NCBI GenBank assembly: GCA_032622095.1
Contig: CP136068.1
Span: 123,323,989 to 123,387,988 of the forward strand
Direction: 5' to 3'
Origin: Siphonodentalium dalli
Taxonomy: Eukaryota; Mollusca; Scaphopoda; Gadilida; Siphonodentaliidae
DNA length: 64,000 nucleotides
The notes beneath the pieces are model-generated. The model made no database searches. It saw only the letters and a program-made list of their open reading frames with translations, and was not told where the DNA came from. Below are positions 2,219 through 63,917 of the stretch, one piece after another (within the stretch, counting starts at the first letter, position 1; each line of letters starts with the position of its first letter). Both the position numbers and the translations under genes were made by a program.

Positions 2219-2256
<38 letters not shown>

Positions 2257-3312: not shown

Positions 3313-3361
3313 TTATATTCCTAAACTTTTAGATGTAAGTATTCTACCAACTATATTTCAG

Positions 3362-3475
3362 AACAGGGCTAGGCTTGTAGCCCTTCATCCAAAGAATTTT
3401 ACTAATCTGGAACTCATCCAGAAAGCACTAATGGTTGTGAGTCTGGACGACAGAGTGATTGAAAATCCCAGCGAT
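3362..3475 (+). CDS. CROT-like exon 1 of window (38 codons)
   Basis: The acceptor is 'ctatatttcag' and the donor 'gat|gtaagt', phase 0 at both ends. The translation runs from NRARLVALHPKNF through LELIQKALMVVSLDD, matching the family segment 'WAKAREHLISLDPENL...LEKIQSSL' that precedes the active-site exon. It lies about 50 bp downstream of the satellite array. No in-frame stop is present. Confidence 0.8.
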
Positions 3476-6400: not shown

Positions 6401-9400
6401 ATTCAATCGATGCCGATCTGCCAAGAGCTTTACACAACCTGCCGTTATAAAATACGTTGGTTTGGTTTAAACATATTTATTGTAACACAAGATACAAGGG
6501 ATTGGGGCACAAGTGATACCAACTTAACGTGATGCCTCTCCCGAAAATATTTACACAAATGTTTAAACAATATGAATAACATATATAATTGTACATGTAC
6601 TATTAAGAATGTTAATAATGATGATGTCTGGTGAGTTGTGATTGGTGGATTGTGATTACCGGTCCCGAGATCCTCTCCTAAAGATCATGCCATGCCTTGA
6701 GTAGTTACGACTGTTTTTCGTTAAGTGAAACGTTTGCTTTCTGAAATATATTTTTGAACCATGTAAAAGAGTAGTTGGTTTCGACGTTGTGGAATGTCCT
6801 GTCAGTCCATGGAGCGGTGTAGTGTTCGTGTACACTGCATCGAGTTATCAGATCCGACAACCCCATTTCCATAAACATGGTTATATATCTAGTAAATATA
6901 ATGTGAGTAATTTTAGCATTTCCTAGTGTTAAGTTACTGTTGGTACACCTTTGTACAATGGTACAGATGCATCGGAGTCGCTGAAATAGATCACTACTTG
7001 CTCTTTTCCGGTATGGGCTGCGTAGGAAGACAGTTAGTCATCATTATATCACCCAACAATATACATAATATAAAGTAATGTATAGCCACAGGTGAACCAA
7101 GACAACCACAGGGACATAACTTTCAACCCGGGAAAACAGACAATCTCTAGTTCGCGGGGGCTGCTCGATTTACCACACATATCAGCGCCTCTGTTGACTA
7201 AATCAAGATTGCGAAATACTGGACACCAAAAGCAGATTAATGGCCACGTATACATACCCATAGCGTTATACATATAGAGAAGAAGAATTGGGGAGTAAAC
7301 AGAACAATTTCGGGATTAGCGAGGCCAGATACCTTGCTAGAGAAGACTATAGAAAACTAATGCAGCGCGCTGGACGAGGAGAGCAGTCTAAGGAACGCAT
7401 AGGAAAATGACGCTGCTCGATTAACACAGGAACGCCCCTGTTGATGCACCGTGAAATGCGCATCGAGCCAGCATAATCCCTTCGCTGTACCGAGATACGA
7501 TACACAGTTCTAACCGACTACCCAGCAGTGACCAAGACTTCTCGGACGCCAAGAAGACAGCTAGGATCTCTAGCCAGACGCATGGATAGGAATGCAAGGT
7601 AAACATTATGATCTTGTATTTCTAACAACACCCCACTGATGCGCCGGCGGAGAAGAAGAGCAGACGACAGGACGAGGAACACCACCTGAGGGTATCCACG
7701 CAGACGACAGGCCAACGAACTCAACCGGAACTCAACCACGAAGAAGACAAGCAGACACGCCCAACTTATGAGGACGCAAGAAGACCCTAACCCGAGCAGA
7801 CGACAGGAAGACAAACACAACTAGAAAGAAACCAGATGCCGACGATTGAATGCTATTGACTTTGTTGTAATTAAATAATCAAACCGTTTTGATGGTCTTA
7901 AGAGTTATATGTACCCGTATTGGCACACAGGAGACCATGTGCTTTTAATAAACACCATATTTTATTGTCCTTTGCATTTTATGTTTATTTTTATGTTTGG
8001 TTTAAACTTTGTTTATCTATCCACCAAATATATAATTATGTGACATAAAATACATTGAATATGGAAATACATAAGGAATTGTTATAATGGATATGGTAAT
8101 TTGTTATATATCTGGTAGAAAGGGAGAACGACAGTAAGCACATGGCTTATGTATCACCAAGGACCCCCTGTAAAATGTATATATAAATAATCGTGTGATT
8201 TTACGTTAATATCGGGACCAGACAGTAGACAGATAATTCGAATATTTCATGGGTTCTTTGATATTTTGGGTATTTAGAATAAGAGGAGAATTCAGGAGAA
8301 GAAGATGAAAATGGAGGGGGAGATGATGGCGGGGGAGGGGAGTTGAACGGGTTCTTCGTTTTATTACACGTAATAAACGTAGGTATGGTGCTATGGTGCT
8401 GACCGATTTATAATTAAGCAACTAAAATCGTTGTGTGTGGAACTGTGTGGAATGTGAATTTTTGGAATTCTTCAAAAATAGTTAGATTTGTTTGTAGACT
8501 CATTGTATCATCGCCATTGGAAAACTATAAATATAATATAAATAGGTTTATGTTTATAGCACGTCACTCAAATAAATTATCATTGTCATCATTATTATCG
8601 TCGCCGCCGTCATCTTCATCGTCATTGTCGTCACAGTTACAGCCTACAGCAACAACAACAACCCCTCCCTCCACTCCATTATGGTATAGAAAATTATCAA
8701 GTATGTACTATTTTATTGAAGCATGGACCAGCAGATGCTATGATGGGTTTTGTCACTACATTTTACGTTGACATGTGTCTTGATGAAATCAACGGTAAAT
8801 GGCCAGTGAGTATGATTCTATAAAAACCTATCTTGTCCTCAAATTGTCAAAATGGTCTGAAACACCCCATTTAGGTGTTCCCTGGCGGAATAACAAATAA
8901 TCATGCCAAATAAGTTATTTTCATTAATTTGATATACAAATAGTCATAAAACAGCGTCATTGTCATAAACGAATTACACACACGGACTATTATTGGTTCA
9001 ATAATTGCCGTAATTTTTATGTCCAATATAATGCGTCAGGAATAAAGTAGTAAATAGTTAAATGTGTGCGTAGTTCAACCGTTGTGTTCTCTCACATGGC
9101 ACAGTCGATGCTGTTGGAATTTTCGACAATCTTAATTCTTTCTACATTCTTCCAGTGGGGACACTGTTTGCATACTAACTGATTGTTTTTATTCAATATG
9201 TCTTTAACCAATGGCTACAAAGTTGTTGCCATTTAGATTTTCTTCAGAACTAAAGCTACTGACAATCTTCAACAATCGTTTTCTGTTGACATGTTCCAGG
9301 AATCAAAATAGTTGCAATAAACAACATTCTCTATGTTAGTTTCTTCTTGGAAAACTATATTGGGCATACACTTGTGTAATGGAACATCGAAGTAGAAGCA

Positions 9401-21194: not shown

Positions 21195-21583
21195 TTAACC
21201 CTTTACCCAACAAACCGGCCAAAAAAAGCTTCAACAGCCTAAAATATCTTCGGTCTGTCTCAATAACACCATACAAATATGGATATCATTGGAACCGGTT
21301 CATTGACCACATTGTGATGGTTACAGTTATGCCCTGTGCCAATGAATTCTCTTATATATGCGATTCGACCATAGGTCGCCTTGCATATATAAGAGAATGC
21401 ATTGGCCTAAAAAACTTTTTACCATTTTTTCTTACATCAATTTTATCATTTTTTCTTACATTTTTATCATTTTTAATATGTTAAGCCAATGCATTCTCTT
21501 ATATATGCGAGGCGACCTATGGTCGACTCGCATATATAAGAGAATGCATTGGCACAGGGCCGTTCTGTTGGGTAAAGGGTTAA
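21195..21583 (-). mobile_element. piggyBac-type double-hairpin MITE, copy A
   Basis: TTAA at both edges followed by CCCTTTACCCAACA ends. Inside are two long hairpins built of 'ccaatgcattctcttatata' and 'gcgagtcgacc' with their reverse complements, separated by an AT-rich spacer. Copies B-D at 40119, 42240 and 45850. One arm outside the hairpins carries 'aagcttcaacagcctaaaat'. There is no transposase. Confidence 0.88.
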
Positions 21584-22856
21584 CCCTTGTTTCATTTTGC
21601 TGGTAGAATCAATATATTGCATGCTGTCATTTTCGGTAACAACCCAACATGTATAAATTATAATTATTTTGTTTTCTGTTTATTTTTATAAACTGTCATT
21701 TGCTTCTCTTCAGCATTCACGGCATTCATTAGATAAGACCATAACATATTCGGCACAAATAGGTTCATATTGGACCTAAATATCCAAATAGGCTCATATT
21801 GACTCATTTGTTTCTGAAATAAGCCCATAGTGAGGTATGAAATCCGCATTGAAAACAAGTTAGAAAGAGCGCTCATCTAGTAGGTCGTGTCGATGAAAAA
21901 AGGTTGATGTCACTATGGGCTTATTTCTTATGGAAATGGTCCCATACTGGACTGTTTTAAACCCATGTTTTAGGTCCATATAGAGCGTATATTGAGATTG
22001 AATAATGCCAATATGAGCTTATTTCGCTCATTAAAATAAGCCCGTTATGTGCTTATTTTCACGAGAACAGGCTGTTCCAGACACAACAATCACACAAATC
22101 TGGCTGACTTCTGCTTAGGTGTCATTAACATCCATTCATATAAATGATAGACCATTCCAATTTACATGCACACTGTTGTAACTAAAATGGAGAATCCATT
22201 TAATAACTAGAATGCACTCACTGGAGCTGCCTATACTTGCGCCCATCACACATTTGGCATGTTTTGTGGTGTCTTACCAACAACAGTTTGAACCACGGGT
22301 GCTGGCCCCTCGTTTGAGAGATCGATACAATCTAGATATAACATCCCAGTTCATCCATCGTGAAATAGTTGTGTGTACGGACAGAATATCTCTGTTATCT
22401 GAAGTTGGTCTATTACACTAATGATAGTCTTAGTAATACGTACGAGTTGTTTGACATATTTATAGAACAATATAGACATCGTTCATATAAAGGGTGTGAA
22501 GACGATTGGTTGCCGATGATGCTATATTATATACCAATTGGGTTAAATTACTAGTTTGACTACAATGATATCAAGTGTGTATGCCATTGCACTTTAGTAG
22601 CAAAAAACATCAAAGTAAATTACAAATACCGACACAATTAAATAAAAGACACGCGACCATTGGCTAGTCTTTGATTAACAGTGTGTCAATGTGAACATGC
22701 CCTCGGTGACTGATCTGCAGTCTTCGGGAACATATCATCAAAATGTCAATTGCGTTGAGAATGAGAAAGCTTGTTTTCCCAGTTAATTAATAAGGCATTT
22801 TAATAATCCATGTTTCCACATTCACATTTTTCAGTGCAATTGTTTTCCAATTGAAC
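21584..22856. other. Non-coding, with one hairpin
   Basis: No gene seen. 'aaataagcccatagtga' at about 21812 and its inverse 'tcactatgggcttattt' at about 21912 form a hairpin; related 'cccatattgg' and 'ataagcccgtta' pieces continue to 22060. The rest is featureless up to the giant element. Confidence 0.5.
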
Positions 22857-22862
22857 CACGCG
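22857..22862. other. Left target site duplication CACGCG
   Basis: It is identical to 34821-34826 and lies exactly where arm identity stops on both sides. Confidence 0.75.
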
Positions 22863-25800
22863 AGTAGTGTATATGATAAACTATCTCGTATACTTGACAG
22901 AAGGAAAGGTTTTGTAAGACATACTAATAACTATTTCTAGGCAGATGGTATAGTAAGCAAACTATTTCTAGGCAGATGGTATAGTAAGCAAACTATTTCT
23001 AGGCAGATGGTTATAGTAAGCAAACTATTTCTAGGCAGATGGTTATAGTAAGCAAACTATTTCTAGGCAGATGGTATAGTAAGCAAATTATTTCTAGGCA
23101 GATGGTTATAGTAAGCAAACTATTTCTAGGCAGATGGTTATAGTAAGCAAACTATTTCTAGGGAGATGGTATAGTAATCAAACTATTTCTAGGCAGATGG
23201 TATAGTCAGACTAACTAGTAACTATTTGAAGGCATAGATAAGCTACAATACACGCTTCTAGGCAGATGTTATAGTCAGACGAACTAGTAACTATTTTAAG
23301 GCATAGACAAGCTACAATACGACCTATTTTATGTTAGGTAATGATGTATGGTTATTTCAGATGGTATAGTAAAGCAAACTATTTATAGGCAGATGATATA
23401 GTCAGGCTAACTAGTAACTATTTGAAGGATTAGTACGCACGATTGAATACATGTATTATTGTGATGTTAGGTTAGTAAAATAATAGTCCTAAATGAGATG
23501 AATTATTCGCTAGTGAATAACCTCGTGCATATAAAAAACCACAAGGCTAAAACACATGGAATATTTGTTAGTGTCGGAACTTTGTCTTCTTTATTGTAGA
23601 TTTGTAGGTAACACTATTCGATCTCATAAAACTCGATATTACAGAGTCTCGTAGAAAACGAAATGTGGAACCCTTCACACTTTAGTTCCTTTAAGAATAT
23701 TAATGGTACATAAATCTTAGTATACAAACAGATATCAAAAAAACATAATCAAATCAATCTTTTTTTAAGATATGGACAGTCTGGTCTACCCGTCGAAATA
23801 TCTTCTGGCAAAAATGTATCAATATTTAAAGTCAGACTAACTATTTCTAGGTTGGTGTTTAAATACCTCTTCTAGGCTATACTCAAACAAACAATTTCTA
23901 GGTTATTCAAACATTTCCAAAAATATACTGAGTAAATCTACAAATATTAATTGGAATATAAAGAACAGAGTTAGCTCCCCTGTGAATTGTAACAGTATTA
24001 AAATTAATCATTATTTAAAGTCAAACTATTTATTTATAAGTTGGTCATAAAATTACTACATCTAGGCTATGGGATATACTCAGGCAAACTATTTTTAGGT
24101 TAATCAAAAATATCAGAGTTGTAAACTAAATCTACAAATATTAATTGGTATATAAAGAACAGAGTTAGCTCCCCTGTGAATTGTAACATGTGTTTTATTA
24201 AGTTCATTATAGATCTTAAACGATTGATATATGTTAATGAATGATACAATGATATATTCGTTAGCGAATAAACCTATGCATGTAAAAACCACAGGTCTAA
24301 ACACATTGAACTTTTTTTTTAGGAACGTTCTTCTGTAGATTAATAGGCAACACATTTCAAAAACACCATTTCATAGTGATAGAAATCGAAATGTATAACC
24401 ATTATCGGTTCCTTTAATGAAAATGAATGATGGGAATATATTGAAATCAATCAACTTATGCTGGAATATATAAAAATATGTGTATCAAGCATGTTAAATT
24501 GTGAATAATTAGTTATTTATATCACACCAACGTTAATTCATAATCTATAATATTTTAGGAAAGAAAACTGGAACAATTAGCAACTATTTTCGGTTTATAT
24601 CAACACAACTAAATAAAAAAAATATCCCCCTTTTAATGAAATATTAAATGTATAAGCACGATAAAGCAATTAAAACACAATTTAATTTACTTTTTCGTCA
24701 ACAAAATTGAAGTTATATGTTATAATGCTTCAAAATCAATGAAAATCCTTAATCAAATATCTCAATTGAAAGCCAAATTTAAAAAAAAATCAATTTCAAT
24801 GTTAACGGAAACAATTTAACAACAACAAAAAATCTTTATCTGTTTCGCTCGCAAGTATCAAAAGTCCTTTTTCATTGCCACAATAATCGTAAAACACAAT
24901 AAATGTTTTGTCTTTAATCAAAAAATGTAAAAATATTATAATCATAGTCAAAAAAATTCAAGCACAAACTTTATATGTAAAACAAAATATGAAAATTAAA
25001 TAAAACTTTAATCCATTTATTTGCAAAACAAATTTTTGAAACATTGTTGACTGTTAACGCAAACAACTGATATTCCAAATCTTTTTAAACATCAAAAGTC
25101 GCACAACCAAAGTTAAATAAATGTTTTGTTTTAACATAACAAGACTTACTTGCCTACTAAAGAACAGATCCATCGAGGTACAATTCTCTCTCAATTTTTA
25201 CCTATGCGAATGTATCTGTTTATATAAGGAAAAAACATTCTATCTTTAGTCCCAAGCAAATGATGTCATTCGAGGAATCTTTCTTTAAGTCGAATAATCT
25301 ACCAACATATATCACAAAACATGATGAGGTCTTCGTCGAGAATTCATGTCCGACTCTGTTTAACATAACAAGACTTACTTACTCATCAAAGAACAGATAA
25401 TCCATCGAAGTATAATACTGTCTCAATTTTACCTATCCGAATGTATCTGTTTATATAAAAAAAACATTCATTCTATCTTTACTCTCAACAAAATGATGTC
25501 ATACGACCCAAGTCGAATAATCTAATATCATTCGTCGAGAATTCATGTCGAGCTCTAGTTATATACAGTAACACATTAATTTACTCAATCTATCTATAGT
25601 CACAAAAAGTGAAGTCGAGCTATCTTGTTAAATGTCCTCGTATGCCTATCATAATGTACCCTCCCATTTTATCCCACGACATGAATAATATAATTCATGT
25701 CGACATATATCTGTACAAGGCGACTAATTTATTCAACTAGGCTACCTAGCTTGGATCATATTTCAAAGAACGCATCCGTTAACGACCCGTCCTTACAAAA

Positions 25801-28310
25801 CGAATAATTTATACTACACCTGTCAAATTTGCATATTTAAGGTATGTTACGGTAAACATTCCAATGTATGCTATATAAGCCAACTAAAATAGGAAATCAA
25901 AGCATGGATTCAATAGTTTATTATATTATGATTTCAGATAACTTTTAATTAATTATTATCTTGTTCAACATATATTCTATGTAATTTAAAACAATAAATT
26001 ATATAAAGTTTCTATATTAATCGGAGCGAAACATATTGAGGAAGTTTAAAGCAGTTGTCTTAAAGTGACACTAAGATTTATTTTCTTATTTGCGCACAGT
26101 ATACTTTGTTTAAACCAGATGTCTTAAAATGGCACTAAGATTTATTTTATTATTTTTTATATCTCACACTATTTATAAACAAGATGTCTTAAAGGGGCAC
26201 TAAGATTTCATTTTATAATTTCAATACCAAAAGTGTTTGAACATCACAGCCAAAAATTTAACCTCAGAATTGTTAATAAATAAGTCTTCTTCGCATCTTA
26301 ATTCTTAAAAGGGCGCTAATAATTTAACTTAAATATGGTTGAAAATGTATCGTTAAAGAGCGTTTATTATCTGCTTGTATGCAACTCTTTCAATCCCTCG
26401 TAATATTCGGATACAGTATACTTTGTTCATCCCATATGTCTTAGAATGGCACTAAGATTTATTTTATTATTTTATCCATCTATTTATAAACAAGATGTCT
26501 TAAAAGGGCACTAAGATTTCATTTTATAATTTCAATACCAAAAGTGTTTCAATATCACAGCAAAACAAAAATTGTAATAATTTTACCTCAGAATTGTTAA
26601 TAAATAGGTCTTCTTCACATCATAATTCTTAAAAGGGCGCTAATAATTTAACTTAAATATGGTTGCAAATTTATCGTTAAAGAGCGTGTATTATCTGTTT
26701 GTATGCAACTCTTAATTATCAAAAACGGATACTGTTACACTATAATACACAAATTTTTAGATAGTATATTACAGTATCCAAATTAACATTGTTACAATTC
26801 AGATTCTACGGAAAGTTATCTTTAAACATGCAAATAAAAACAATAATCATAGTTTTACAATTGTTTTTTTATGTAAAATTTTATTTGTCTACACGTTGTG
26901 GCTAAGCATATCATAACAGTATATTTACATTTATCTAGCAAATGCGCTCTAATTTCTACAAATTAACATTCCAATTCATAAATTGTTTTTTTTTTGAAAA
27001 AAAAAATACTGTAACAGTTTTGTTTACATACCAACTCGTATAGTTTAATAAATAAAGATAACACTTACCTGATTATGGCAAATAATTCTCCCTTAATCAT
27101 AATGGCAACACGATTTGGAAAAACAAATGCTGATGAATCCGTACGCAATTTAGCATCAGATGTAAACATGCTCGGACAGAAACAATTCCCGGTCGTTCGT
27201 TTTTAAACTTACAATTGATGCAGGGTGAAGTGCCAAGCGTTAAGTTTCAACAAGCAGTGAATGGCCATTATATATCTGATTAATTTACCTTTGTATACAG
27301 CATAACGCCCGTGTTGGCATCTGCACGCACGCTTAAAACTCATTAGTCATTGAAATTTGAAAATTTAGAATAATTATTTATCGCGCATTCATCGTACAGA
27401 TTTATACGATGAAAGCAAATATAAACTGCGTATGTGCACACGACTAATATATACTTTCAATGCTATGCCTATAAATAGTATGCAATTATCTCGCAGAATC
27501 AATCAAACAATAATATTAAGCTAATTCTGTTAGTTACACCATTGCATCTGAAATTGCTCGATGTCGTTAGACTATAGGTTAATGTGTGTTTTATATGCAT
27601 GTTCCCGTTCATTATCTGCACATTTTTAAATCGTCACGGAAATCTACCTACTAACATATTTGAACGCACATTATAATTTGGATAGTTAAATCATACATCT
27701 TATCACTGGAAAAATATGAATATATGCTCTAAATCTGTTGGCAGGGCTATTTCAATATACAACATCATATGTATTCAATGTTTCTAATATATAAATTATA
27801 CCCCAAATTATCATACAAAAAATATGTTTTCAAGATGGCATCCAATATGGCTATTCAGAAATGTGAGCTTCAAAATATATCCTGATAAAATGTACACATT
27901 TACTGTGATCATATATCGTACAACTGGATGTATTAACGTTTATAGCGTAATACCTATGCTATCTCCATTACAAAAGATGGCTGCCGAAATGGCCATCGTT
28001 TACTTCAAGATACAGGGCTTAAAAATGTATTGCATTTTTACAAAGGCTCATATGCATCATTTAGGTTTGTAGTTTGTATAGTATATACTAAATTATCATA
28101 CAATTTGTCATCACAAAAAAACCATATATATATTTTCAAGATGGCGTCCAATATGGCTATTCAGAAATGTCAGCTTCAAAATATATATTGATAAAATGTA
28201 CACATTTGCTGTGATCATATATCATACAACTGGATGTATTAGCGTTTATAGCGTAATACCTATGCTATCTCCATTACAAAAGATGGCTTCCAAAATGGCC
28301 ACCTTTACTC
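22863..28310 (+). repeat. Left inverted arm of the giant element
   Basis: 5,448 bp. From outside in it holds the tip array, AT-rich DNA, two copies of a 'gacttacttgcctac' / 'cgagaattcatgtcgagctc' block (25140-25560), a block of 'gatgtcttaaaatggcacta' repeats (26050-26660), a MITE-like segment (about 27300-27720) and two copies of a 'tttcaagatggcgtccaata' block (27820-28310). Known differences from the right arm are few: 9 bp missing at 25923 and a base change near 26290. Confidence 0.9.
22932..23212 (+). repeat. ~31-bp tip array of the left arm
   Basis: About nine units of 'aaactatttctaggcagatg' plus 'gtatagtaagc', alternating 'ggtatag' and 'ggttatag'. Diverged units continue to about 23420, and single 'tatttctagg' pieces recur near 23840 and 24080. 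Confidence 0.92.
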
Positions 28311-29361
28311 TAAAATACAGAGCTTAAAATTACATGCATAATTTAGAAAGTTGATTTTGATTAGTTATACTACTTATTTCTTCAAAGAGTTAATATTTCC
28401 TTATTCTTATCACAGTTTTAAAAACAATCAACAAAAATCTTCATTGTGTATCATATAATGAGTTCTTGGTAGGCTATCTCATTGTACAACATATACGTAT
28501 TCATATTTGTTTGTAATATCCAATGGAGTATTTCGTAAATAAAGTTGTCAAATGCTATAATATAATATAAACTCTCAATATCAAAGTATTAAACAAACGA
28601 AAAAATAGTCACAGAACCGTCCCATGGGGTAGAATCCCTCTAATACATATCTCATACACAATATTACTTTGTTTTAAACCGAGTTGTGTGGAACATCGTC
28701 ATTTTAATATCATTTTAATCAACCGTTCTAGAACAAATTACTTACACAATCTTTTCTTAAAAGCTGTTAAAAAAAAATTGTCTACCTAATTCACAATTAT
28801 TTTTTTGCTAGGTTCGTAGTATTATCATATGGAGCGTAGGTTCGAAAACGAAATTAGTAAGAATGCTTTTTTTTGGTAGTGGGAATGTGTCAGGGGTAAA
28901 TTCTGCTATAATTCACTTAATGCTATGTTTTCAAGATGGCGTCCAATATGGCAACTGAGAACTGTGAGCTTCAAAATATATCTGATAAATTGTATGCCTT
29001 AGTTAATATGATCACATAATTATGCGCTTGGCTGTCTTCGCGTTGATAACGTATTAGCAACGCTGACGCCATTATAAAATGGCAAACATTTACTTCAAAA
29101 TATACAGCTTTAGAGAAATGTTCGGTATTTTACAAAATAAGACCGAGTGATATTTTGTCTTTCTTCTCGAAATGTATGAACAAAACAAGAGATGATATAC
29201 ATTACAAACAACTGAAATGTAGTCAGTTGACGACCACTATACACAAAAATAAATTTGATTACTGCCAACACAGTGTCAGAATTGAAAAATAAATTGTAAA
29301 TGTGTATCATAAACACTATAATATCGCATTGAATATTCATTTTATTTATTTATATTATGCC
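28311..29361. other. Unique spacer of the giant element
   Basis: This 1,051-bp spacer is the only non-mirrored part. It starts with AT-rich DNA and contains a third, diverged copy of the 'tttcaagatggcgtccaata' block near 28928. The longest frame, 29110-29340 on the minus strand (76 aa), has no recognisable domain. There is no sign of a transposase. Confidence 0.8.
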
Positions 29362-32300
29362 GAGTAAAGGTGGCCATTTTGGAAGCCATCTTTTGTAATG
29401 GAGATAGCATAGGTATTACGCTATAAACGCTAATACATCCAGTTGTACGATATATGATCACAGCAAATGTGTACATTTTATCAATATATATTTTGAAGCT
29501 GACATTTCTGAATAGCCATATTGGACGCCATCTTGAAAATATATATATGGTTTTTTTGTGATGACAAATTGTATGATAATTTAGTATATACTATACAAAC
29601 TACAAACCTAAATGATGCATATGAGCCTTTGTAAAAATGCAATACATTATTAAGCCCTGTATCTTGAAGTAAACGATGGCCATTTCGGCAGCCATCTTTT
29701 GTAATGGAGATAGCATAGGTATTACGCTATAAACGTTAATACATCCAGTTGTACGATATATGATCACAGTAAATGTGTACATTTTATCAGGATATATTTT
29801 GAAGCTCACATTTCTGAATAGCCATATTGGATGCCATCTTGAAAACATATTTTTTGTATGATAATTTGGGGTATAATTTATATATTAGAAACATTGAATA
29901 CATATGATGTTGTATATTGAAATAGCCCTGCCAACAGATTTAGAGCATATATTCATATTTTTCCAGTGATAAGATGTATGATTTAACTATCCAAATTATA
30001 ATGTGCGTTCAAATATGTTAGTAGGTAGATTTCCGTGACGATTTAAAAATGTGCAGATAATGAACGGGAACATGCATATAAAACACACATTAACCTATAG
30101 TCTAACGACATCGAGCAATTTCAGATGCAATGGTGTAACTAACAGAATTAGCTTAATATTATTGTTTGATTGATTCTGCGAGATAATTGCATACTATTTA
30201 TAGGCATAGCATTGAAAGTATATATTAGTCGTGTGCACATACGCAGTTTATATTTGCTTTCATCGTATAAATCTGTACGATGAATGCGCGATAAATAATT
30301 ATTCTAAATTTTCAAATTTCAATGACTAATGAGTTTTAAGCGTGCGTGCAGATGCCAACACGGGCGTTATGCTGTATACAAAGGTAAATTAATCAGATAT
30401 ATAATGGCCATTCACTGCTTGTTGAAACTTAACGCTTGGCACTTCACCCTGCATCAATTGTAAGTTTAAAAACGAACGACCGGGAATTGTTTCTGTCCGA
30501 GCATGTTTACATCTGATGCTAAATTGCGTACGGATTCATCAGCATTTGTTTTTCCAAATCGTGTTGCCATTATGATTAAGGGAGAATTATTTGCCATAAT
30601 CAGGTAAGTGTTATCTTTATTTATTAAACTATACGAGTTGGTATGTAAACAAAACTGTTACAGTTTTTTTTCTTTTTCAAAAAAAAAACAATTTATGAAT
30701 TGGAATGTTAATTTGTAGAAATTAGAGCGCATTTGCTAGATAAATGTAAATATACTGTTATGATATGCTTAGCCACAACGTGTAGACAAATAAAATTTTA
30801 CATAAAAAAACAATTGTAAAACTATGATTATTGTTTTTATTTGCATGTTTAAAGATAACTTTCCGTAGAATCTGAATTGTAACAATGTTAATTTGGATAC
30901 TGTAATATACTATCTAAAAATTTGTGTATTATAGTGTAACAGTATCCGTTTTTGATAATTAAGAGTTGCATACAAACAGATAATACACGCTCTTTAACGA
31001 TAAATTTGCAACCATATTTAAGTTAAATTATTAGCGCCCTTTTAAGAATTATGATGTGAAGAAGACCTATTTATTAACAATTCTGAGGTAAAATTATTAC
31101 AATTTTTGTTTTGCTGTGATATTGAAACACTTTTGGTATTGAAATTATAAAATGAAATCTTAGTGCCCTTTTAAGACATCTTGTTTATAAATAGATGGAT
31201 AAAATAATAAAATAAATCTTAGTGCCATTCTAAGACATATGGGATGAACAAAGTATACTGTATCCGAATATTACGAGGGATTGAAAGAGTTGCATACAAG
31301 CAGATAATAAACGCTCTTTAACGATACATTTTCAACCATATTTAAGTTAAATTATTAGCGCCCTTTTAAGAATTAAGATGCTAAGAAGACTTATTTATTA
31401 ACAATTCTGAGGTTAAATTTTTGGCTGTGATGTTCAAACACTTTTGGTATTGAAATTATAAAATGAAATCTTAGTGCCCCTTTAAGACATCTTGTTTATA
31501 AATAGTGTGAGATATAAAAAATAATAAAATAAATCTTAGTGCCATTTTAAGACATCTGGTTTAAACAAAGTATACTGTGCGCAAATAAGAAAATAAATCT
31601 TAGTGTCACTTTAAGACAACTGCTTTAAACTTCCTCAATATGTTTCGCTCCGATTAATATAGAAACTTTATATAATTTATTGTTTTAAATTACATAGAAT
31701 ATATGTTGAACAAGATAATAATTAATTAAAAGTTATCTGAAATCATAATATAATAAACTTATCTGACTATTGAATCCATGCTTTGATTTCCTATTTTAGT
31801 TGGCTTATATAGCATACATTGGAATGTTTACCGTAACATACCTTAAATATGCAAATTTGACAGGTGTAGTATAAATTATTCGTTTTGTAAGGACGGGTCG
31901 TTAACGGATGCGTTCTTTGAAATATGATCCAAGCTAGGTAGCCTAGTTGAATAAATTAGTCGCCTTGTACAGATATATGTCGACATGAATTATATTATTC
32001 ATGTCGTGGGATAAAATGGGAGGGTACATTATGATAGGCATACGAGGACATTTAACAAGATAGCTCGACTTCACTTTTTGTGACTATAGATAGATTGAGT
32101 AAATTAATGTGTTACTGTATATAACTAGAGCTCGACATGAATTCTCGACGAATGATATTAGATTATTCGACTTGGGTCGTATGACATCATTTTGTTGAGA
32201 GTAAAGATAGAATGAATGTTTTTTTTATATAAACAGATACATTCGGATAGGTAAAATTGAGACAGTATTATACTTCGATGGATTATCTGTTCTTTGATGA

Positions 32301-34820
32301 GTAAGTAAGTCTTGTTATGTTAAACAGAGTCGGACATGAATTCTCGACGAAGACCTCATCATGTTTTGTGATATATGTTGGTAGATTATTCGACTTAAAG
32401 AAAGATTCCTCGAATGACATCATTTGCTTGGGACTAAAGATAGAATGTTTTTTCCTTATATAAACAGATACATTCGCATAGGTAAAAATTGAGAGAGAAT
32501 TGTACCTCGATGGATCTGTTCTTTAGTAGGCAAGTAAGTCTTGTTATGTTAAAACAAAACATTTATTTAACTTTGGTTGTGCGACTTTTGATGTTTAAAA
32601 AGATTTGGAATATCAGTTGTTTGCGTTAACAGTCAACAATGTTTCAAAAATTTGTTTTGCAAATAAATGGATTAAAGTTTTATTTAATTTTCATATTTTG
32701 TTTTACATATAAAGTTTGTGCTTGAATTTTTTTGACTATGATTATAATATTTTTACATTTTTTGATTAAAGACAAAACATTTATTGTGTTTTACGATTAT
32801 TGTGGCAATGAAAAAGGACTTTTGATACTTGCGAGCGAAACAGATAAAGATTTTTTGTTGTTGTTAAATTGTTTCCGTTAACATTGAAATTGATTTTTTT
32901 TTAAATTTGGCTTTCAATTGAGATATTTGATTAAGGATTTTCATTGATTTTGAAGCATTATAACATATAACTTCAATTTTGTTGACGAAAAAGTAAATTA
33001 AATTGTGTTTTAATTGCTTTATCGTGCTTATACATTTAATATTTCATTAAAAGGGGGATATTTTTTTTATTTAGTTGTGTTGATATAAACCGAAAATAGT
33101 TGCTAATTGTTCCAGTTTTCTTTCCTAAAATATTATAGATTATGAATTAACGTTGGTGTGATATAAATAACTAATTATTCACAATTTAACATGCTTGATA
33201 CACATATTTTTATATATTCCAGCATAAGTTGATTGATTTCAATATATTCCCATCATTCATTTTCATTAAAGGAACCGATAATGGTTATACATTTCGATTT
33301 CTATCACTATGAAATGGTGTTTTTGAAATGTGTTGCCTATTAATCTACAGAAGAACGTTCCTAAAAAAAAAGTTCAATGTGTTTAGACCTGTGGTTTTTA
33401 CATGCATAGGTTTATTCGCTAACGAATATATCATTGTATCATTCATTAACATATATCAATCGTTTAAGATCTATAATGAACTTAATAAAACACATGTTAC
33501 AATTCACAGGGGAGCTAACTCTGTTCTTTATATACCAATTAATATTTGTAGATTTAGTTTACAACTCTGATATTTTTGATTAACCTAAAAATAGTTTGCC
33601 TGAGTATATCCCATAGCCTAGATGTAGTAATTTTATGACCAACTTATAAATAAATAGTTTGACTTTAAATAATGATTAATTTTAATACTGTTACAATTCA
33701 CAGGGGAGCTAACTCTGTTCTTTATATTCCAATTAATATTTGTAGATTTACTCAGTATATTTTTGGAAATGTTTGAATAACCTAGAAATTGTTTGTTTGA
33801 GTATAGCCTAGAAGAGGTATTTAAACACCAACCTAGAAATAGTTAGTCTGACTTTAAATATTGATACATTTTTGCCAGAAGATATTTCGACGGGTAGACC
33901 AGACTGTCCATATCTTAAAAAAAGATTGATTTGATTATGTTTTTTTTATATCTGTTTGTATACTAAGATTTATGTACCATTAATATTCTTAAAGGAACTA
34001 AAGTGTGAAGGGTTCCACATTTCGTTTTCTACGAGACTCTGTAATATCGAGTTTTATGAGATCGAATAGTGTTACCTACAAATCTACAATAAAGAAGACA
34101 AAGTTCCGACACTAACAAATATTCCATGTGTTTTAGCCTTGTGGTTTTTTATATGCACGAGGTTATTCACTAGCGAATAATTCATCTCATTTAGGACTAT
34201 TATTTTACTAACCTAACATCACAATAATACATGTATTCAATCGTGCGTACTAATCCTTCAAATAGTTACTAGTTAGCCTGACTATATCATCTGCCTATAA
34301 ATAGTTTGCTTTACTATACCATCTGAAATAACCATACATCATTACCTAACATAAAATAGGTCGTATTGTAGCTTGTCTATGCCTTAAAATAGTTACTAGT
34401 TCGTCTGACTATAACATCTGCCTAGAAGCGTGTATTGTAGCTTATCTATGCCTTCAAATAGTTACTAGTTGGTCTGACTATACCATCTGCCTAGAAATAG
34501 TTTGCTTACTATATCATCTCCCTAGAAATAGTTTGCTTACTATAACCATCTTCCTAGAAATAGTTTGCTTACTATAACCATCTGCCTAGAAATAATTTGC
34601 TTACTATACCATCTGCCTAGAAATAGTTTGCTTACTATAACCATCTGCCTAGAAATAGTTTGCTTACTATAACCATCTGCCTAGAAATAGTTTGCTTACT
34701 ATACCATCTGCCTAGAAATAGTTTGCTTACTATACCATCTGCCTAGAAATAGTTATTAGTATGTCTTACAAAACCTTTCCTTCTGTCAAGTATACGAGAT
34801 AGTTTATCATATACACTACT
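29362..34820 (-). repeat. Right inverted arm of the giant element
   Basis: 5,459 bp, the reverse complement of 22863-28310. All repeat blocks recur in mirror order, including the small frames mirrored at 29600-29848 and 33328-33570. Confidence 0.9.
34470..34756 (-). repeat. ~31-bp tip array of the right arm
   Basis: Mirror of 22932-23212, with units 'gcctagaaatagtttgctta' plus 'ctataccatct'. The order of the long ('ataacc') and short ('atacc') variants can be compared directly with the left array. Confidence 0.9.
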
Positions 34821-34826
34821 CACGCG
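34821..34826. other. Right target site duplication CACGCG
   Basis: Immediately follows the terminal ...CACTACT of the giant element and repeats 22857-22862. Confidence 0.75.
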
Positions 34827-36250: not shown

Positions 36251-36285
36251 GGGGCGCCGTTCCTCTATTTATCCCCTATTTGCAG

Positions 36286-36656
36286 ATATCTCCTCGTGGC
36301 TAAGAGATATCTCCTCATGAATTAAGAGATATCTGCTAGCAATTTAGAGATATCTCTTAATCGACATGATCGAGGAGATATCTCCTCGCGAATTAAGAGA
36401 TATCTCTAAATCACTAAGAGATATCTCCTCGCGAATTAAGAGATATCTCCAATTCATTAGTAGATATCTCTTAATTCGCGAGGAGATATCTCTTAGTGGC
36501 ATGATTTAGAGATATCTCTTAATTCGCGAGCAGATATCTCTTAGTGATTTAGAGATATCTCTTAATTCGCGAGCAGATATCTCTTAGCCACAAGGAGATA
36601 TCTCTTAGTACTGCTGAATTAAGAGACATCTCCTCGGCCGCTAAGAGATATCTCCA
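36286..36656. repeat. Left GAGATATCTC array
   Basis: About 16 copies of GATATCTC cores, many as full GAGATATCTC, joined by 'ctcgcgaattaa', 'ttagtg' and 'aattcattag'. Because every core is its own reverse complement the array can fold on itself in many registers. Confidence 0.95.
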
Positions 36657-37917
36657 ATTCGGCAGTGTTGACTGGAACAGGCTCAAACTGAAGGATCCCT
36701 CAATAGCACTCAATGATGCTATTTATAGAACAGCGAGAGCACGTGGCGTTGTTTATAAACAGAGGGTCGGACATTCTCCGGGTATTACAATACGTAGCCC
36801 TTCATTGCGCAATGTAAACATGTCATCCCATAAAACAGTGATTGTGGGTCTTATAATAACTTGGAAAAAAAGGGAACACCGCAATTGTTGGTATGGCTTA
36901 TGCAACAATGGCAGTAAGAAATGTGGAGAAAATCACTTGGAAAATGTAACTTTGACGCCCTTTCCTAAGCTAAAATCAAACAGATAAAATATGTATTTAT
37001 GGATTAATTAGTTGTTGCTGAAACGAGAAATTAACGGTGGATACCGTTAAAATTGGACATATATATGCAGCAAGAATTTTGTGCGTGTCCTTAGCCCCAC
37101 TAAGGAGTTCCCGGACCCAATTCCTGTCACATTGTGACATATTTGTATAGACGTCAGACAGAATGAAAATGACTGTCAAATGATGTGTTATCAAATCGAA
37201 AAATACAACTGGATTCACAAAATTAGAACAGTGTTACTGTAGTTTCAAGTGATATAGTACTATATATAGGTACAATGTATAGGTGCATGCAAAAACACGA
37301 GAACATGTATACAGGCCCTGTAAGGAACGTGATGCCACAGAAACTCTTATGTCGCCAGATGTCCCTTGGTTATTTTAGCTATGTCAATTAACGTACGTGG
37401 AGAATAATTCAGGGACCAAAGATGCCGTCGATGCACTACTGATTTGTGAAGAATAAACATGGATTTTGTGAACTGAGAACAGGTGTTGATGCCAAAGCTG
37501 TAAGGCAACATTGCCATAAATATAATGCTTTCGTTATATAATCATGGATCTGGTGAAAACGTGATTTGACAATATGATATAATTGATTTGGATCATCAAA
37601 CACCTGCATGCATATGGGAAGCCAAATTGACCGTGGAGCCCAACGATGATACTACGAACGCAGCATCCGGCCGCCTTATATAGACGGAATAATGATATTC
37701 TCCCCAAATCCAAGCGGTAAATAAAATATATACTCTGCTACAGTCCAAATCATTATACTCTGTCCATTTAATAGGTTCTGTTGCACATGCACAAATATAT
37801 CGTGTGTGCTCGCCCTTCTGTCATAACGAAATTAACCCATAAAATATTCACAATGGCTGGCAAAAAAAAACACTTGCTGGGGGAGAAATTCTTAATGTTC
37901 TCTGACCCAAAACTGAA
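36657..37917. other. Unique interior of the GATATC foldback element
   Basis: An open + frame runs from inside the left array to 36987, through DWNRLKLKDPSIAL, TARARGVVYKQR and a Cys-containing stretch (CWYGLCNNGSKKC). It has no family I recognise and ends without continuation. The rest (36990-37917) has no plausible gene. Confidence 0.4.
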
Positions 37918-38420
37918 TAAGAGATATCTCCTCGGTCACGAAGAGATATCTCTAATTCAGCACTACTAAGAGATATCTCCTCGTGGCTAAGATATATCTC
38001 CTCGTGAATTAAGAGATATCTCCTAGCGATTTAGAGATATCTCCTCGCGAATTAAGAGATATCTCTAAATCATGCCACTAAGAGATATCTCCTCGCGAAT
38101 TAAGAGATATCTGCTAATGAATTGGAGATATCTCTTAATTCGCGAGGAGATATCTCTTAGTCATTTGGAGATATCTCTTAGTGATCGAGGAGATATCTCT
38201 TAATTCAGCAGCCTAGGAGATATCTCCTCGTAGCTAAGAGATATCTCCTTGTGATTTAGATATATCTCCTCACGAATTAAGAGATATCTCCTTGGCAATT
38301 GGAGATATCTCCATAACAATTGGAGATATCTCCATAACAATTGGATATATCTCTTAATGGATTGGATATATCTCCTAATGAATTGGAGATATCTCCAATG
38401 AATTGGAGATATCTCTAAGT
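37918..38420. repeat. Right GAGATATCTC array
   Basis: About 25 cores, same linkers as the left array plus 'aattggagatatctcc' variants near the right end. Confidence 0.95.
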
Positions 38421-38929: not shown

Positions 38930-39529
38930 ATGGATGTTCTCCGAAACTCGATCGATCACACACTTATCAGACAAGCACCAAAGGCTCAGGTGGAGGAAAT
39001 GCTCGCCAATGACGTCATTGAGCGTAGTTCAAGTTCTTGGTCGTCGACAGTTTTGTTGGTTAAAACATCTGATGGACCTTATCAATTTTGCGTTGAATAT
39101 CGTCAGGTATATGCCATCGCATGTAGGTATGCTTACCTCTGCCACGTTTCGATGACTGCTTGCAGTCACTGTCGGGATCAATTTGTTCAACATTTCTCTG
39201 CCATAGCTGATCCACTGCTTAATTTGATACGGAAACAAGTCAAGTTCCATTGGGATGAGGATTGCGAACATGCATTTATAAAACTGAAACAATGTTTGAC
39301 CCCGGCTCCTGTTCTCGCTTATCCCAAAGAGGACGGTGCTGTTCTTTCCCAGTTCCGGGATGGCAAAGAATGTGTCATCGGCTATTTCATTACTCGACAA
39401 ACAGCAGATGAACTATTGTATGAGTACATAGAACCTTATACTGTAGTTCAAGCTGTTAGACATTTTAAGCATTTCCTGTTGGGCACTAAGTTTTTTATTC
39501 GAACTGCCCATTCATCTCTGGGTGGCTAA
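38930..39529 (+). pseudogene. Gypsy-type RT start fused to RNase H fragment
   Basis: Residues near the start (IRQAPK, MLANDVIERSSSSWSS, VLLVKTSDG) match the opening of gypsy reverse transcriptases. The later part (ADPLLNLIRK, FHWDEDCEHAFIKLKQ, LTPAPVLAYP) matches the RT-RNase H connection. The intervening active-site region is deleted. After the stop at about 39527 related sequence continues in another frame to about 39640 (ILARWL, LSTYNFEIQQR). Confidence 0.85.
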
Positions 39530-39754: not shown

Positions 39755-40118
39755 GTGTGCGCTATTCAAACCGGGGACCCTATTTCACATCAGTTTGATT
39801 TTGATAATTGGCTTGAGTCTTTGGATGCTGATTCCACATCATTTCCCCAGCTGAATGGTCCTGTTATTGGACAAATTCTTCACACAAAGAAAACCTTGTC
39901 CATGAAACCTTCATCTGACATTGCACTGCTGCCTTCTGAAACAAAAAGTTTGAGGGTAAAATGGGAAAGTCTTAGTGTTGATTGTGGTATTATATACTTC
40001 TCTACTGGGGATGAGAAAACATTAGTAGCTCATATGGAATTGAGAACGAGCTTGTTCCAACAACTTCACTGCAATAGGATTGCAGGACATCTGGGAAGGG
40101 ATAGGACTTTAGATTCTT
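39755..40118 (+). pseudogene. Gypsy-type RNase H/integrase linker and integrase N-terminus
   Basis: The frame ends in LHCNRIAGHLGRDRT, the His-x-His part of the integrase zinc-binding domain. The partner Cys residues lie after the MITE, near 40575-40590 (CENC-like). The reading frame runs on into the MITE only by chance. Confidence 0.75.
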
Positions 40119-40517
40119 TTAACCCTTTACCCAACAGAACGGCCCTGTGCCAATGCATTCTCTTATATATGCGAGTCGACCATAGGTCGCCTCGCATATA
40201 TAAGAGAATGCATTGGCTTAACACATTACAAATTATAAAATTGTTAAAGAATGTAAGAAAAATGGTAAAAAGTGTTAAAAAAAGATTTTTTTTAGGCCAA
40301 TGCATTCTCTTATATATGCGAGGCGACCTATGGTCGACTTGCATATATAAGATAATGCATTGGCACAGGGCATAACTGTAACTATCACAATGTGGTCAAG
40401 GAGCCGGTTCCAATGATATCCATATTTGTATGGTTCTATTGAGACAGACCGAAGATATTTTAGGCTGTTGAAGCTTTATTTGGCCGGTTTTGGCCGTTTT
40501 GTTGGGTAAAGGGTTAA
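40119..40517 (+). mobile_element. piggyBac-type double-hairpin MITE, copy B
   Basis: TTAA at 40119-40122 and 40514-40517. Opposite orientation to copy A. Inserted into the integrase N-terminal region of the gypsy-type element, so it is younger than that element. Confidence 0.9.
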
Positions 40518-40635
40518 ATCAAGGGCATTCTGACCAGGTATGTCCAGGGATATAGCATGATGGTGTTCCGAGTGTGAGAGCTGTTCTCGTGTTAAATTTG
40601 GACATGGTAGAGGCAAATCTCCACTTCAGCAGGAC

Positions 40636-42239: not shown

Positions 42240-42639
42240 TTAACCCTTTACCCAACAAACCGGCCAAAACCGGCCAAATAAAGCTTCAACAGCCTAAAAT
42301 ATCTTCGGTCTGGCTCAATAGAACCATACAAATATGGATATCATTGGAACCGGCTCCTTGACCACATTGTGATAGTTACAGTTATGCCCTGTGCCAATGC
42401 ATTATCTTATATATGCGAGTCGACCATAGGTCGCCTCGCATATATAAGAGAATGCATTGGCCTAAAAAAAATCTTTTTTTAACACTTTTTACCATTTTTT
42501 CTTACATTCTTTAACAATTTTATAATTTTTAACGTGTTAGGCCAATGCATTCTCTTATATATGCGAGGCGACCTATGGTCGACTCGCATACATAAGAGAA
42601 TGCATTGGCACAGGGCCGTTCTGTTGGGTAAAGGGTTAA
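42240..42639 (-). mobile_element. piggyBac-type double-hairpin MITE, copy C
   Basis: TTAA at both edges, same orientation as copy A. 'aaccggccaaaaccggcc' is duplicated next to the left end. Confidence 0.9.
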
Positions 42640-43814
42640 CAAGAATTGGGGGAAAAAGCACAAAGACGTTCATACACACTTGACTTTATACTGCTTTATT
42701 ACAACTGAGTTTATTAAGAGACTTTATATTGCTGGGATTGATATGCATGTTATTGTTATGTTCAGCCTTCATCTTTAGCAGACTGGGAAGGGGGGCCCTA
42801 GCGGAACAAGGTATTAATTCTGTCAGTGTTTTGCCGTTTTGCTTCATCGGTGGGTTTCGCCTGGGCGCAGCCATTGTTATAGGTCCTGGATGTAGCTAAA
42901 CGCCGTCAATACGAATAGAGTTATCGGTCATGACAAGTTCTTTCGTTTCCAATAAGAGTTTCGATGCGTTCTTTTATACAGACATAATGTGTCATTGTTT
43001 TTTGGCATCTCTCCTATGGTTCCATGCGCTTCCAGTTGTCTAATGTCGCACATAAATAGGCATTAGTAATCTGCAAGTTGTCTCAACGCTTTATTTCCAG
43101 CAACCTTTCTTCCAGAATTTCTTAAAGTGATTTTTCTTAGAATCACACCATTTTCGGCCATATTCGATATTTCACGAGTCTTGGTTCTTTTCTCGGTATC
43201 GGCCTCTTCTTTTCCGGGCCAAAGTTAAGTGTACAGTTCACAGATGTGAACTCACTGTGCGTTTGTACTATACAAGCTTGGACGTTCACAGATGTGAACT
43301 ATTTCTTCGTTGGTTCTAAATATCTTAGCCATATAATGTTATGATACCTAACACTCTTAAAGTGGACATTTCTATTCTGAATTAGTTATTTTCTTGATAT
43401 ATTCATCACACTCTTAAAATGGAAACCCCGATATTTATTATTAATCTCTGTTAGCAGTTCCGGAAGATATCAATATAGCATGGAGGTCCTAATTTTGTCC
43501 TCTTAAAAGTGTCCCCTTTTTATTCTGCGTATAGGGCCAAATTAATTATTAATTATATTTTAAATCTCTTTTGTATTTGGGTTAAGGGTGGAGAAACCTG
43601 GGAAATTGTGACATACATTTTCATCGGTGGGCATAATCCTTGTCAGGGCCGTTGACGCAAATTCCGTAGAATCTACTTTAATAAATAATTAATTAATATG
43701 GACTAAATAACGGAGATATTTGAAGAAGTGTTTTAACGAAGTCACGGAGATATAGACCAAAATTGAACACTTGTGGTGTTGTAATTTATTTCATACTAAT
43801 CTCCGTTTATTTCG
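42640..43814. other. Non-coding
   Basis: No gene seen. The near-palindrome GTTCACAGATGTGAAC occurs twice, near 43236 and 43287. A few 'cactcttaaa-tgg' pieces recur between 43360 and 43520. Confidence 0.45.
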
Positions 43815-45783: not shown

Positions 45784-45849
45784 CACCAACAACGGACTGT
45801 TAAAGATACCATGTCCGGTATGACACAATGAAACCACAATCTGTACGTT

Positions 45850-46247
45850 TTAACCCTTTACCCAACAGAACGGCCCTGTGCCAATGCATTCTCTTATATA
45901 TGCGAGTCGACCATAGGTCGCCTCGCATATATAAGAGAATGCATTGGCTTAACACATTAAAAATTATAAAATTGTTAAAGAATGTAAGAAAAAATGGTAA
46001 AAGTGTTAAAAAAAGATTTGTTTAGGCCAATGCATTCTCTTATATATGCGAGGCGACCTATGGTCGACTCGCATATATAAGAGAATGCATTGGCACAGGG
46101 CATAACTGTAACTATCACAATGTGGTCAAGGAGCCGGTTCCAATGATATCCATATTTGTATGGTTCTATTGAGACAGACCGAAGATATTTTAGGCTGTTG
46201 AAGCTTTATTTGGCCGGTTTTGGCCGGTTTGTTGGGTCAAGGGTTAA
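45850..46247 (+). mobile_element. piggyBac-type double-hairpin MITE, copy D
   Basis: TTAA at both edges, same orientation as copy B, nearly identical to it. Confidence 0.9.
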
Positions 46248-47467
46248 ATACCAGAAAATATTACGATCGAACCCATGAACCCATTAATGGGAGGGTTTGA
46301 TGGCCATATATCGACTTTCAAAAGAGGAAGCGGCCGATAAGACGTCAGACACCAATAAATTTACCAGACAAAATCTGCAATTCCAGGTTATCAGTACGGC
46401 ATTTCAACGTGTTGGATCGTAGTTACCCAATGATGTGATGGTGTTGGCGATATAGCACACAAGAACCCACAGCCCATGATGCATTATGTATATGGCACTA
46501 GTTTACAAGATAAAATGTGGCAAATGTCCCACGACTCCCACTGCATCAAGGGTTATTATGAAACACAATTTTCTCTAAATTCTTGCCAATTCTCACCAAT
46601 TTTTCACCATTTTGTTTTGTCTTGTTTTTTTTATCCAGGAAGGGAGGTCATTCTGCTTGCTTGGCATTTCTTTCTCATGATACTACATCGAGTCTTGAAC
46701 CACAATAAAACTATTTTATGTTTCAATAAATTTTATGTTCGACCAGCCCCAGTTAATCATAAATGCAATAGCATATCATTAAGGAGACGACCGCATGTAA
46801 ATTCCATAGCCATTAGAACCGCACACTATAATCATCTTGGCATCACCATATATATCAATTATAAACACATCTTCTTGTCCCAACTGGAAATCAATCAAAG
46901 ACTCACGTTACTACAATATTGGATTTTATAATACCCCTGTGAAATTTAATTTTGCCTATTTATACAGCAATATTGGTGTTATTACACGTGAAGCGTGGCA
47001 AAGGATATTATTTAGTGGGAAATTATAATATGACATTCTCAGTTATCATAAAAATGCATAAACGACGACATTGTTCTATTTTGAAAAATGCGTTTTGCCT
47101 CTAAACGAATTATTTCAATTCAGAAAGGTTAGGTTCGGTAACCATTCGCCCCGCTGTATCTTGTTGGGGACCGGCAATTTGGTCAATGTTAGTTTCTTTT
47201 TTCGAAATGGGCCAAAGAAGTTTTCATTTGTGTACACTTTTGGCAAATATGTTCCATGCCTAACTAACGATTGACTCTGGTTTTGTGAGTGTATAATGGA
47301 TTGTCCAAACATTTCTTTTGGCAACAAATCGTGGATGTGTCATTATGGAGGACGTATTGAGAAGCAGAGAGCTAGACTGCCTAACCAACAGTGTTCACTA
47401 TTCCTCAGCAACTGTAGCCGCATTACCCTCCCCCTACGATATTATGTTACACAATGTGTCCAGTGTA
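46248..47467. other. Non-coding; longest frame unsupported
   Basis: The 151-residue frame at 46476-46931 has no domain, no splice context and odd composition. I treat it as chance. Confidence 0.4.
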
Positions 47468-59123: not shown

Positions 59124-59390
59124 GATATGCCATATAATATACCATGAACCCCTAGATCACATATATAAAATATATTCCATATTATATACCATGAACCCCT
59201 AGATCACATATATAAAATATATGCCACATTATATACCATGAACCCCTAGATCACATATAAAATTTATGCCATATTATATACCATGAACCCCTAGATTACA
59301 TATATAAAATATATGCCATATTATATACCATGAAGTTGATGAACCCCTAGATCACATATATAAAATATATGCTATATTATATACCATTTA
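59124..59390 (+). repeat. Right remainder of the ~37-bp minisatellite
   Basis: Five to six units of the variant 'accatgaacccctagatcac' plus 'atatataaaatatatgcc', also found just before the nested element at 54410-54540. Confidence 0.95.
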
Positions 59391-63817: not shown

Positions 63818-63917
63818 NNNNNNNNNNNNNNNNNNNNNNNNNNNNNNNNNNNNNNNNNNNNNNNNNNNNNNNNNNNNNNNNNNNNNNNNNNNNNNNNNNN
63901 NNNNNNNNNNNNNNNNN
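63818..63917. other. Assembly gap (100 N)
   Basis: Exactly 100 undetermined bases, a conventional placeholder. It lies 10 bp after the terminal palindrome, which suggests that the palindrome or repeat broke the assembly. Confidence 0.98.

Follow-up and report, generated by a model that had tools for sequence, protein, structure and literature searches.

For Polintons (also called Mavericks), the evidence on replication mode and on particle formation comes mostly from gene content. According to passages of a study of vertebrate Mavericks (PMC8097293), ends of the (AGT)2//(ACT)2 type are the commonest there, the end motif, being repeated, is expected to support 'jumping back' in end-primed replication, and genome size is constrained. 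Here we describe a palindromic element with such ends from the scaphopod Siphonodentalium dalli (assembly GCA_032622095.1, contig CP136068.1). It lies in a stretch of 64,000 nucleotides, positions 123,323,989 to 123,387,988 of the forward strand, which is called the window in what follows and from whose first letter positions are counted. The element occupies 22863-34820, is 11,958 bp long and is flanked on both sides by CACGCG; judged from its sequence and that of its relatives, it belongs to a family of Polintons that is palindromic, lacks genes and is non-autonomous.

Adeno-associated virus (AAV), which is not a PolB virus, relies on its Rep proteins for replication from hairpin ends. The SYREC genome of adenovirus type 12, found in virus stock, is reportedly a palindrome of near-genome length with the same viral terminus at both ends, much non-viral sequence in its arms and a protein-primed PolB helper. 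Parts of an account of AAV snapback genomes (PMC8235507) describe these defective forms as self-complementary molecules derived from a single genome end, with a turn-back point, in symmetric and asymmetric versions. Galileo, as presented in sections of PMC4168063, has a P-superfamily transposase, makes 7-8-bp target duplications and has a second longest repeat of 1.6 kb. Among titles and abstract openings, with the subscription literature mostly outside that scope, no report of palindromic or defective-interfering Polintons was found.

The window element consists of a left arm (22863-28310, plus strand, starting AGTAGTG) and a right arm (29362-34820, minus strand, finishing CACTACT) of 5448 and 5459 bp, which are 99.6% identical and hold ~91% of its length. 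Self-BLAST returns one long inverted pair, 22862-28310 against 34821-29362 (5460 columns, 99.63% identity, 9 mismatches, 3 gaps); in a base-by-base alignment, the differences within the arms are 9 substitutions, a 9-bp indel and a 2-bp indel. An inverted repeat of 5.4 kb at 99.6% cannot be attributed to chance. The termini, AGTAGTGTATATGATAAAC... and its exact reverse complement, are of the AGTAGT...ACTACT type, i.e. AG/AGT ends with matching CT/ACT as in Polintons; AGTAGTGTATATG... forms the left end and is mirrored at the other. The 6-bp target duplications occupy 22857-22862 and 34821-34826. A first-pass annotation, made from the letters of the window, had described near-identical inverted arms of about 5.45 kb, AG...CT termini directly flanked by CACGCG and terminal repeats covering more than 90% of a 12-kb element, and all of this is borne out. 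Each terminal repeat contains a 31/32-bp tandem repeat (22929-23206, plus strand, ~9 copies on the left; 34477-34754, minus strand, on the right), and a 324-bp repeat occurs within the left arm. The centre (28311-29361, plus strand, 1051 bp) is single copy within the element. The longest stop-to-stop open reading frame (ORF) in the element is at most 94 amino acids (aa); the gene set of an autonomous Polinton (PolB, integrase, ATPase, protease and capsid proteins) is thus absent, and only a non-autonomous derivative is possible. In the window as a whole, an Rfam scan gave 0 matches at the gathering score and a tRNA scan found none.

The 2.23-Gb assembly, in nine contigs, contains many relatives. 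The first 300 bp of the arm have at least 55 matches (40 of 294 first-look candidates scored), and the matches listed for them include 18 inverted pairs 12-14 kb apart. A terminal pattern, the degenerate form of the first 32 bases with at most one mismatch, matches 66 times forward and 63 times in reverse genome-wide, giving at least 129 ends, while the reversed pattern, serving as control, matches 0 and 0 times. Eighty-four of 100 listed ends form 42 facing pairs of less than 17 kb; the 16 left out are unpaired, have a partner outside the 100, or stand 25 and 46 kb apart. The end-to-end span is 11.9-14.6 kb in 33 of the 42 pairs (mean 13,149, standard deviation 601); the remaining spans are four at 16.4-16.7 kb, one of 16.0 kb, and 7,994, 8,603, 10,890 and 15,266 bp. 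For 21 copies (the window copy, ten fetched copies, and two further sets of seven and three), the sequence was read at both ends, and 20 of these have a perfect 6-bp target duplication, the other 19 all unlike the CACGCG of the window. This answers the check proposed in the first-pass annotation, a search with the first 300 bp for further copies, each with its own duplication. The exception, C3_296, is cut at its right end. Ten copies with their own duplications are palindromic, the window among them. Seven of the ten fetched copies belong here: C3_70, C2_101, C4_200, C1_95 and C9_17 align end to end with their own reverse complements at 99.5-99.9%, C2_102 has 7-kb arms and an additional insert near its right end, and C2_213 is a rearranged copy with three inverted blocks. 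Two same-orientation left ends 5.95 kb apart (C7:178609941 and 178615892) that share one right end (178629581) mark a nested or partial copy.

The other three fetched copies (C3_25, C6_152 and C3_296) bear genes. In C3_25 and C6_152, ~4 kb of the non-coding arm of the window (gapped, 82-95% identical) is followed by Polinton genes, and the terminal repeats measure 560 bp; both ends of two integrase-bearing copies match the window arm. C3_25, whose ends are shared with the window, encodes an rve integrase (Pfam, 5e-17) and an Adeno_IVa2-like ATPase (1.6e-6). C3_296 shares the left end, is without the long non-coding arm and has a DNA_pol_B_2 domain (PF03175, 3.1e-36). Two 16.5-kb copies, C3_13 and C2_38, which were read at their ends plus one further stretch of C3_13, have ~495-bp terminal repeats and perfect 6-bp duplications. 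In C3_13, a frame without interruption extends over at least 1030 codons and shares 96.7% identity, across 2573 columns, with the C3_296 PolB region, so that PolB-bearing open-frame copies with the same ends exist. Termini and 6-bp duplications are shared with copies that carry PolB, integrase and ATPase, and the family is therefore a non-autonomous one of Polintons. The first-pass annotation had left the choice between derivation from such an element and a new kind; derivation is upheld, novelty is not, and of the two genes that it proposed to look for in relatives, an integrase is present in C3_25 and an open PolB frame in C3_13. From the shared ends and duplications we infer mobilisation in trans by Polinton proteins.

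The match of the window arm to the ends of the 16.5-kb copies is limited to the first ~0.9 kb: window 22863-23704 (plus strand) is homologous to their ~495-bp terminal repeat, arm positions 1-197 and 496-842 matching and the tandem repeat between them being variable. The following non-coding section (arm ~926-4792, window 23788-27654, plus strand) is common to PolB-less gene-bearing copies; the two 16.5-kb copies, each read for 3.5 kb inward from either end, did not show it there. The section at arm ~4793-6501, whose beginning is at 27655-28310 (plus strand), was seen only in palindromes and not in the gene-bearing copies read. In one copy of 16.0 kb (C6_131), genes of the capsid end lie on one side, and the opposite end consists of the non-coding arm. 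When 25 further midpoints or centres were compared, 21 matched the gene region of gene-bearing copies; the other four matched only a C9_17 segment (L093), PolB (L094), a palindrome tip (L084) and inverted arm pieces (L095). Many of the 12-14-kb pairs are thus gene-bearing, and the clustering of sizes is that of a mixture.

The PolB-less gene-bearing copies constitute a class of their own, with integrase, ATPase and capsid-like genes and with the PolB half replaced by the non-coding arm of the palindromes. This class was seen fully in two copies and partly in others (C6:152082933-152095431, C3:25634129-25647190, L013-L016, L031-L046 and L076-L092). From gene order, a 435-aa protein of a gene-bearing copy is the putative major capsid protein, a 166-aa protein the putative protease and a 364-aa protein a penton candidate; none of the three has a Pfam match above cut-off. 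The 435-aa protein has 112 relatives, several of them named 'F54H12.2' or '-like'; no contig was found for it in IMG/VR, and a profile of 15 of these relatives, its own sequence omitted, had no match among solved structures with E of 1 or below.

In two sisters of the window copy, C2_101 and C4_200, the mirror continues to a 12-nt loop. The centre of the window element follows the C2_101 arm at 99.5% over 1202 columns to the same tip, where the relative turns back; beyond the tip, the window sequence skips 1.05 kb of the other arm and resumes there, and two bases (GA) are shared at the junction. Left arm and centre together thus make up one whole arm of the relatives, and the centre is arm sequence without a partner, the left-arm continuation to a former tip whose right-arm counterpart is missing. 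The 1.05-kb centre reported earlier as unique is indeed present once in the element, but it is not unique sequence, since it continues the left arm. A foreign 1-kb insert is ruled out for the same reason. The absence of ~1.05 kb beside the tip is plain from the alignment, and a one-sided deletion presumably removed it.

Searched against the genome, the centre gives at least 78 matches (40 of 181 candidates scored), grouped, with five minor rows left out, into 40 loci, of which 27 are symmetric, 6 are asymmetric and 7, including that of the window, are single-arm. At five other loci (L049, L050, L055, L056 and L057), an intact tip and 15-189 bp of return arm precede a one-sided loss, which means that in these cases the loss struck an existing palindrome. 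At L052 and L054, the sequence that follows is unrelated, while L051 continues with a piece of the arm in direct orientation. Among the symmetric centres, 18 of 27 have a gap of 58-62 bp and 6 of 27 a zero-loop form (gap -10). In zero-loop centres (L064, L056, L050 and C3_70), the tip seems to have been lost by slippage between direct copies of GAATATTC; as slippage between two direct copies of this 8-bp motif flanking a larger tip is the simpler account, the type is not counted as an independent origin. L084, C2_102 and C1_95 have a second type of tip, with a G/C run, a loop of ~10 nt and a related arm, partly lost on one side in C1_95; this may be a further independent turn-back. Frames similar to those of a 122-bp tandem repeat family at the left edge of the window (758-3312) lie beside the broken centre of L055 (about 192-1101), where the repeat may have entered a one-sided deletion.

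A separate origin is found in C9_17, whose turn-back is distinct from the tip type of the window. Its palindrome centre lies inside the ATPase gene, and a related gene-bearing copy continues past the point at which it turns. C9_17 follows the gene to GGAA and then proceeds with the complement of the sequence before a nearby TTCC, that is, with a 4-bp match and a 7-nt loop. When random short-loop joins were simulated, 2.1% of them had four or more shared bases of this kind. In this one case, the junction looks like the trace expected of a 3' end that folded on itself and was extended.

The two arms of any one copy, as well as its two ends, are generally more alike than those of different copies. 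Across four segments, the divergence between arms of the same copy is 0-0.9% in 29 of 31 comparisons, whereas the medians between copies are 5.7-8.1%. A tree built from 18 rows groups the arms by copy, with the two arms as sisters in all 8 copies; five of the eight pairings have bootstrap values of 99-100, one has 95/90, one is an identical pair, and that of the window has 93/90. Of the 42 pairs, 39 have identical 32-base ends within the copy, whereas 20,000 shuffles gave a mean of 4.8 and a maximum of 14. The window copy, C2_101 and C4_200 are 98-100% identical over the interior; in the outer 2 kb, the window differs by ~4-9% from the other two, and C2_101 differs from C4_200 by 5% in the first 500 columns. 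Each of the three has a separate end type, left equal to right in every one. With outer parts that differ between copies and agree within each, a change entering one arm is thus found in both.

Taken together, these observations make it probable that the palindromes are products of fold-back (snapback) replication of Polintons, non-autonomous and mobilised by helper Polintons. The helpers would supply PolB and integrase. During strand-displacement (protein-primed) replication by the helper PolB, a growing strand would stop; its 3' end would pair back on a few complementary bases and copy itself, yielding a hairpin in which both ends are one and the same terminus. Replication of the hairpin would then give a palindromic duplex, which the helper integrase could insert with a 6-bp duplication. 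If every cycle passes through a folded or hairpin intermediate, one arm would be copied from the other, and the matching of arms and ends follows on that condition. The unstable tip would give rise to one-sided deletions such as that of the window. The snapback feature, namely the same terminus at both ends and arms self-complementary down to a short loop, is present in the family; the window copy, unlike its sisters, is without one side of its own tip.

Several points weigh against this account. With most centres belonging to a single type, a small number of formation events may be enough, and C9_17 provides the single turn-back junction with a known parent; among the single-arm and asymmetric loci, no non-palindromic parent of the window tip was found. 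At least three other one-sided losses (L053, L058 and L060) jump without a return arm, as the window does. In the last segment, arm differences reach 2.3% in C3_70 and 7.5% in the rearranged C2_213, while the closest between-copy pairs (window, C2_101 and C4_200) are only 0-1.7% apart in the four segments. The PolB of C3_296 reads as two abutting frames, and that copy is therefore not intact. The size clustering of 33 of 42 pairs at 11.9-14.6 kb mixes palindromes and gene-bearing copies; the 8-kb pair L095 (C5:194598641-194606634), apparently a short palindrome in which inverted arm pieces meet near the midpoint, speaks against strict size control. Finally, host gene conversion between the arms could also keep them alike.

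This last point leads to the main rival, in which the palindromes, likewise non-autonomous Polintons, arose once or a few times by ordinary inverted duplication (by break and sister fusion, or by recombination of two copies) and then moved as units while host gene conversion kept their arms alike. The arms of human Y palindromes are maintained in this way, and within-copy near-identity would likewise result here; the 18 of 27 symmetric centres with a 58-62 bp gap, from which the 6 zero-loop centres may derive, also accord with few founding inversions. At least one palindrome (C9_17), however, has an origin of its own within the ATPase gene, where the turn shows complementary bases and the loop is short, and matched ends in 39 of 42 pairs include those of gene-bearing copies whose ends are 12-16 kb apart. 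On balance, we consider a few founding inversions with gene conversion unlikely.

For the window copy itself, one may ask whether the centre was made at formation, by a fold-back with a 1.05-kb loop and no later deletion. The junction, with only two shared bases and no trace of a return arm, would fit such an origin, as would the three loci that likewise have no return arm (L053, L058 and L060). Against it, the sisters with 98-100% interior identity have a full mirror and a 12-nt loop exactly where the window jumps, and the five other one-sided losses start beyond an intact tip; a long-loop origin therefore appears quite improbable. The very long inverted repeats and the lack of genes could suggest a transposon superfamily that is new, or an element of the Foldback/Galileo kind without ties to Polintons. 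This is contradicted by ends, 6-bp duplications (20 of 21 copies, where passages of PMC4168063 give 7-8 bp for Galileo) and ~0.9 kb of terminal sequence that the family has in common with copies bearing PolB or integrase, which leaves it with next to no credibility. Long palindromes are known as chimeras of long-read sequencing, yet with unlike flanks, a bracketing 6-bp duplication, 10 palindromic copies with their own duplications and 27 symmetric loci, an assembly inversion artefact is excluded for the family and is very improbable for the locus.

Elsewhere in the window, arrays of GAGATATCTC-type 21/43-bp units form two clusters at 36284-38415, partly inverted to each other (36375-36660 against 37915-38199, 89.6%). 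A dispersed repeat of ~400 bp is present in four copies in both orientations, 90-98% identical (21212-21584, 40113-40519, 42240-42646 and 45848-46249). The ORF at 38930-39529 looks, by eye and by its motif, like a fragment of a retrotransposon reverse transcriptase/RNase H. A 39-bp tandem array of ~38 copies occupies 53090-54588, with a related 47-bp array at 59125-59387, and a run of 100 N at 63818-63917 is an assembly gap.

If fold-back replication of Polintons is indeed the source of the palindromes, a wider and more tentative picture can be drawn, which we hold to be possible rather than probable. The palindromes may be an inherited record of defective, possibly packaged Polinton-virus genomes: non-coding snapbacks of near-helper size and multiple origins, replicated by the protein-primed polymerase of a helper, with arms templated on each other at a hairpin stage. 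They would make up a third parasitic tier beside the PolB-less gene-bearing copies, and their mirror arms may yield long hairpin RNA against the shared terminal repeat. Strand-displacement, end-primed replication that makes fold-back errors would be expected to leave just such a footprint of short-loop turn-backs with mutually templated arms and ends, and because the palindromes sit in chromosomes, this footprint can be read and dated. Whether Polintons still replicate as linear, end-primed and possibly packaged DNA thereby becomes a testable question. The family also shows how very long palindromes, and their one-sided central loss, can arise naturally in chromosomes.

Compared with described systems, the family resembles Polintons/Mavericks in its 6-bp duplication and in the terminal sequence that it shares with PolB, integrase and ATPase copies of the same genome. 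The (AGT)2//(ACT)2 ends of the window element are those of the commonest vertebrate type in the cited passages on vertebrate Mavericks, and sizes cluster here too. The family differs from Polintons in that the palindromes are gene-less, in inverted repeats that take up ~91% of the element rather than ~0.5 kb per end, and in the near-perfect mirror structure of the sister copies of the window. With Foldback/Galileo, it has long inverted repeats and a dynamic structure in common; in the sections of the Galileo account drawn on above, the repeats are much shorter than the window arms, the transposase is of the P superfamily and the duplication is 7-8 bp. The AAV snapback genomes, as far as the portions cited describe them, are matched in self-complementarity from one terminus, in the turn-back and in the presence of symmetric and asymmetric forms, whereas the products in S. 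dalli are integrated in chromosomes and inherited. SYREC is reportedly alike in being a palindrome of near-genome length with one terminus at both ends, in much non-viral arm sequence and in a protein-primed PolB helper, but occurred in virus stock; the palindromes described here, in contrast, are an abundant chromosomal family.

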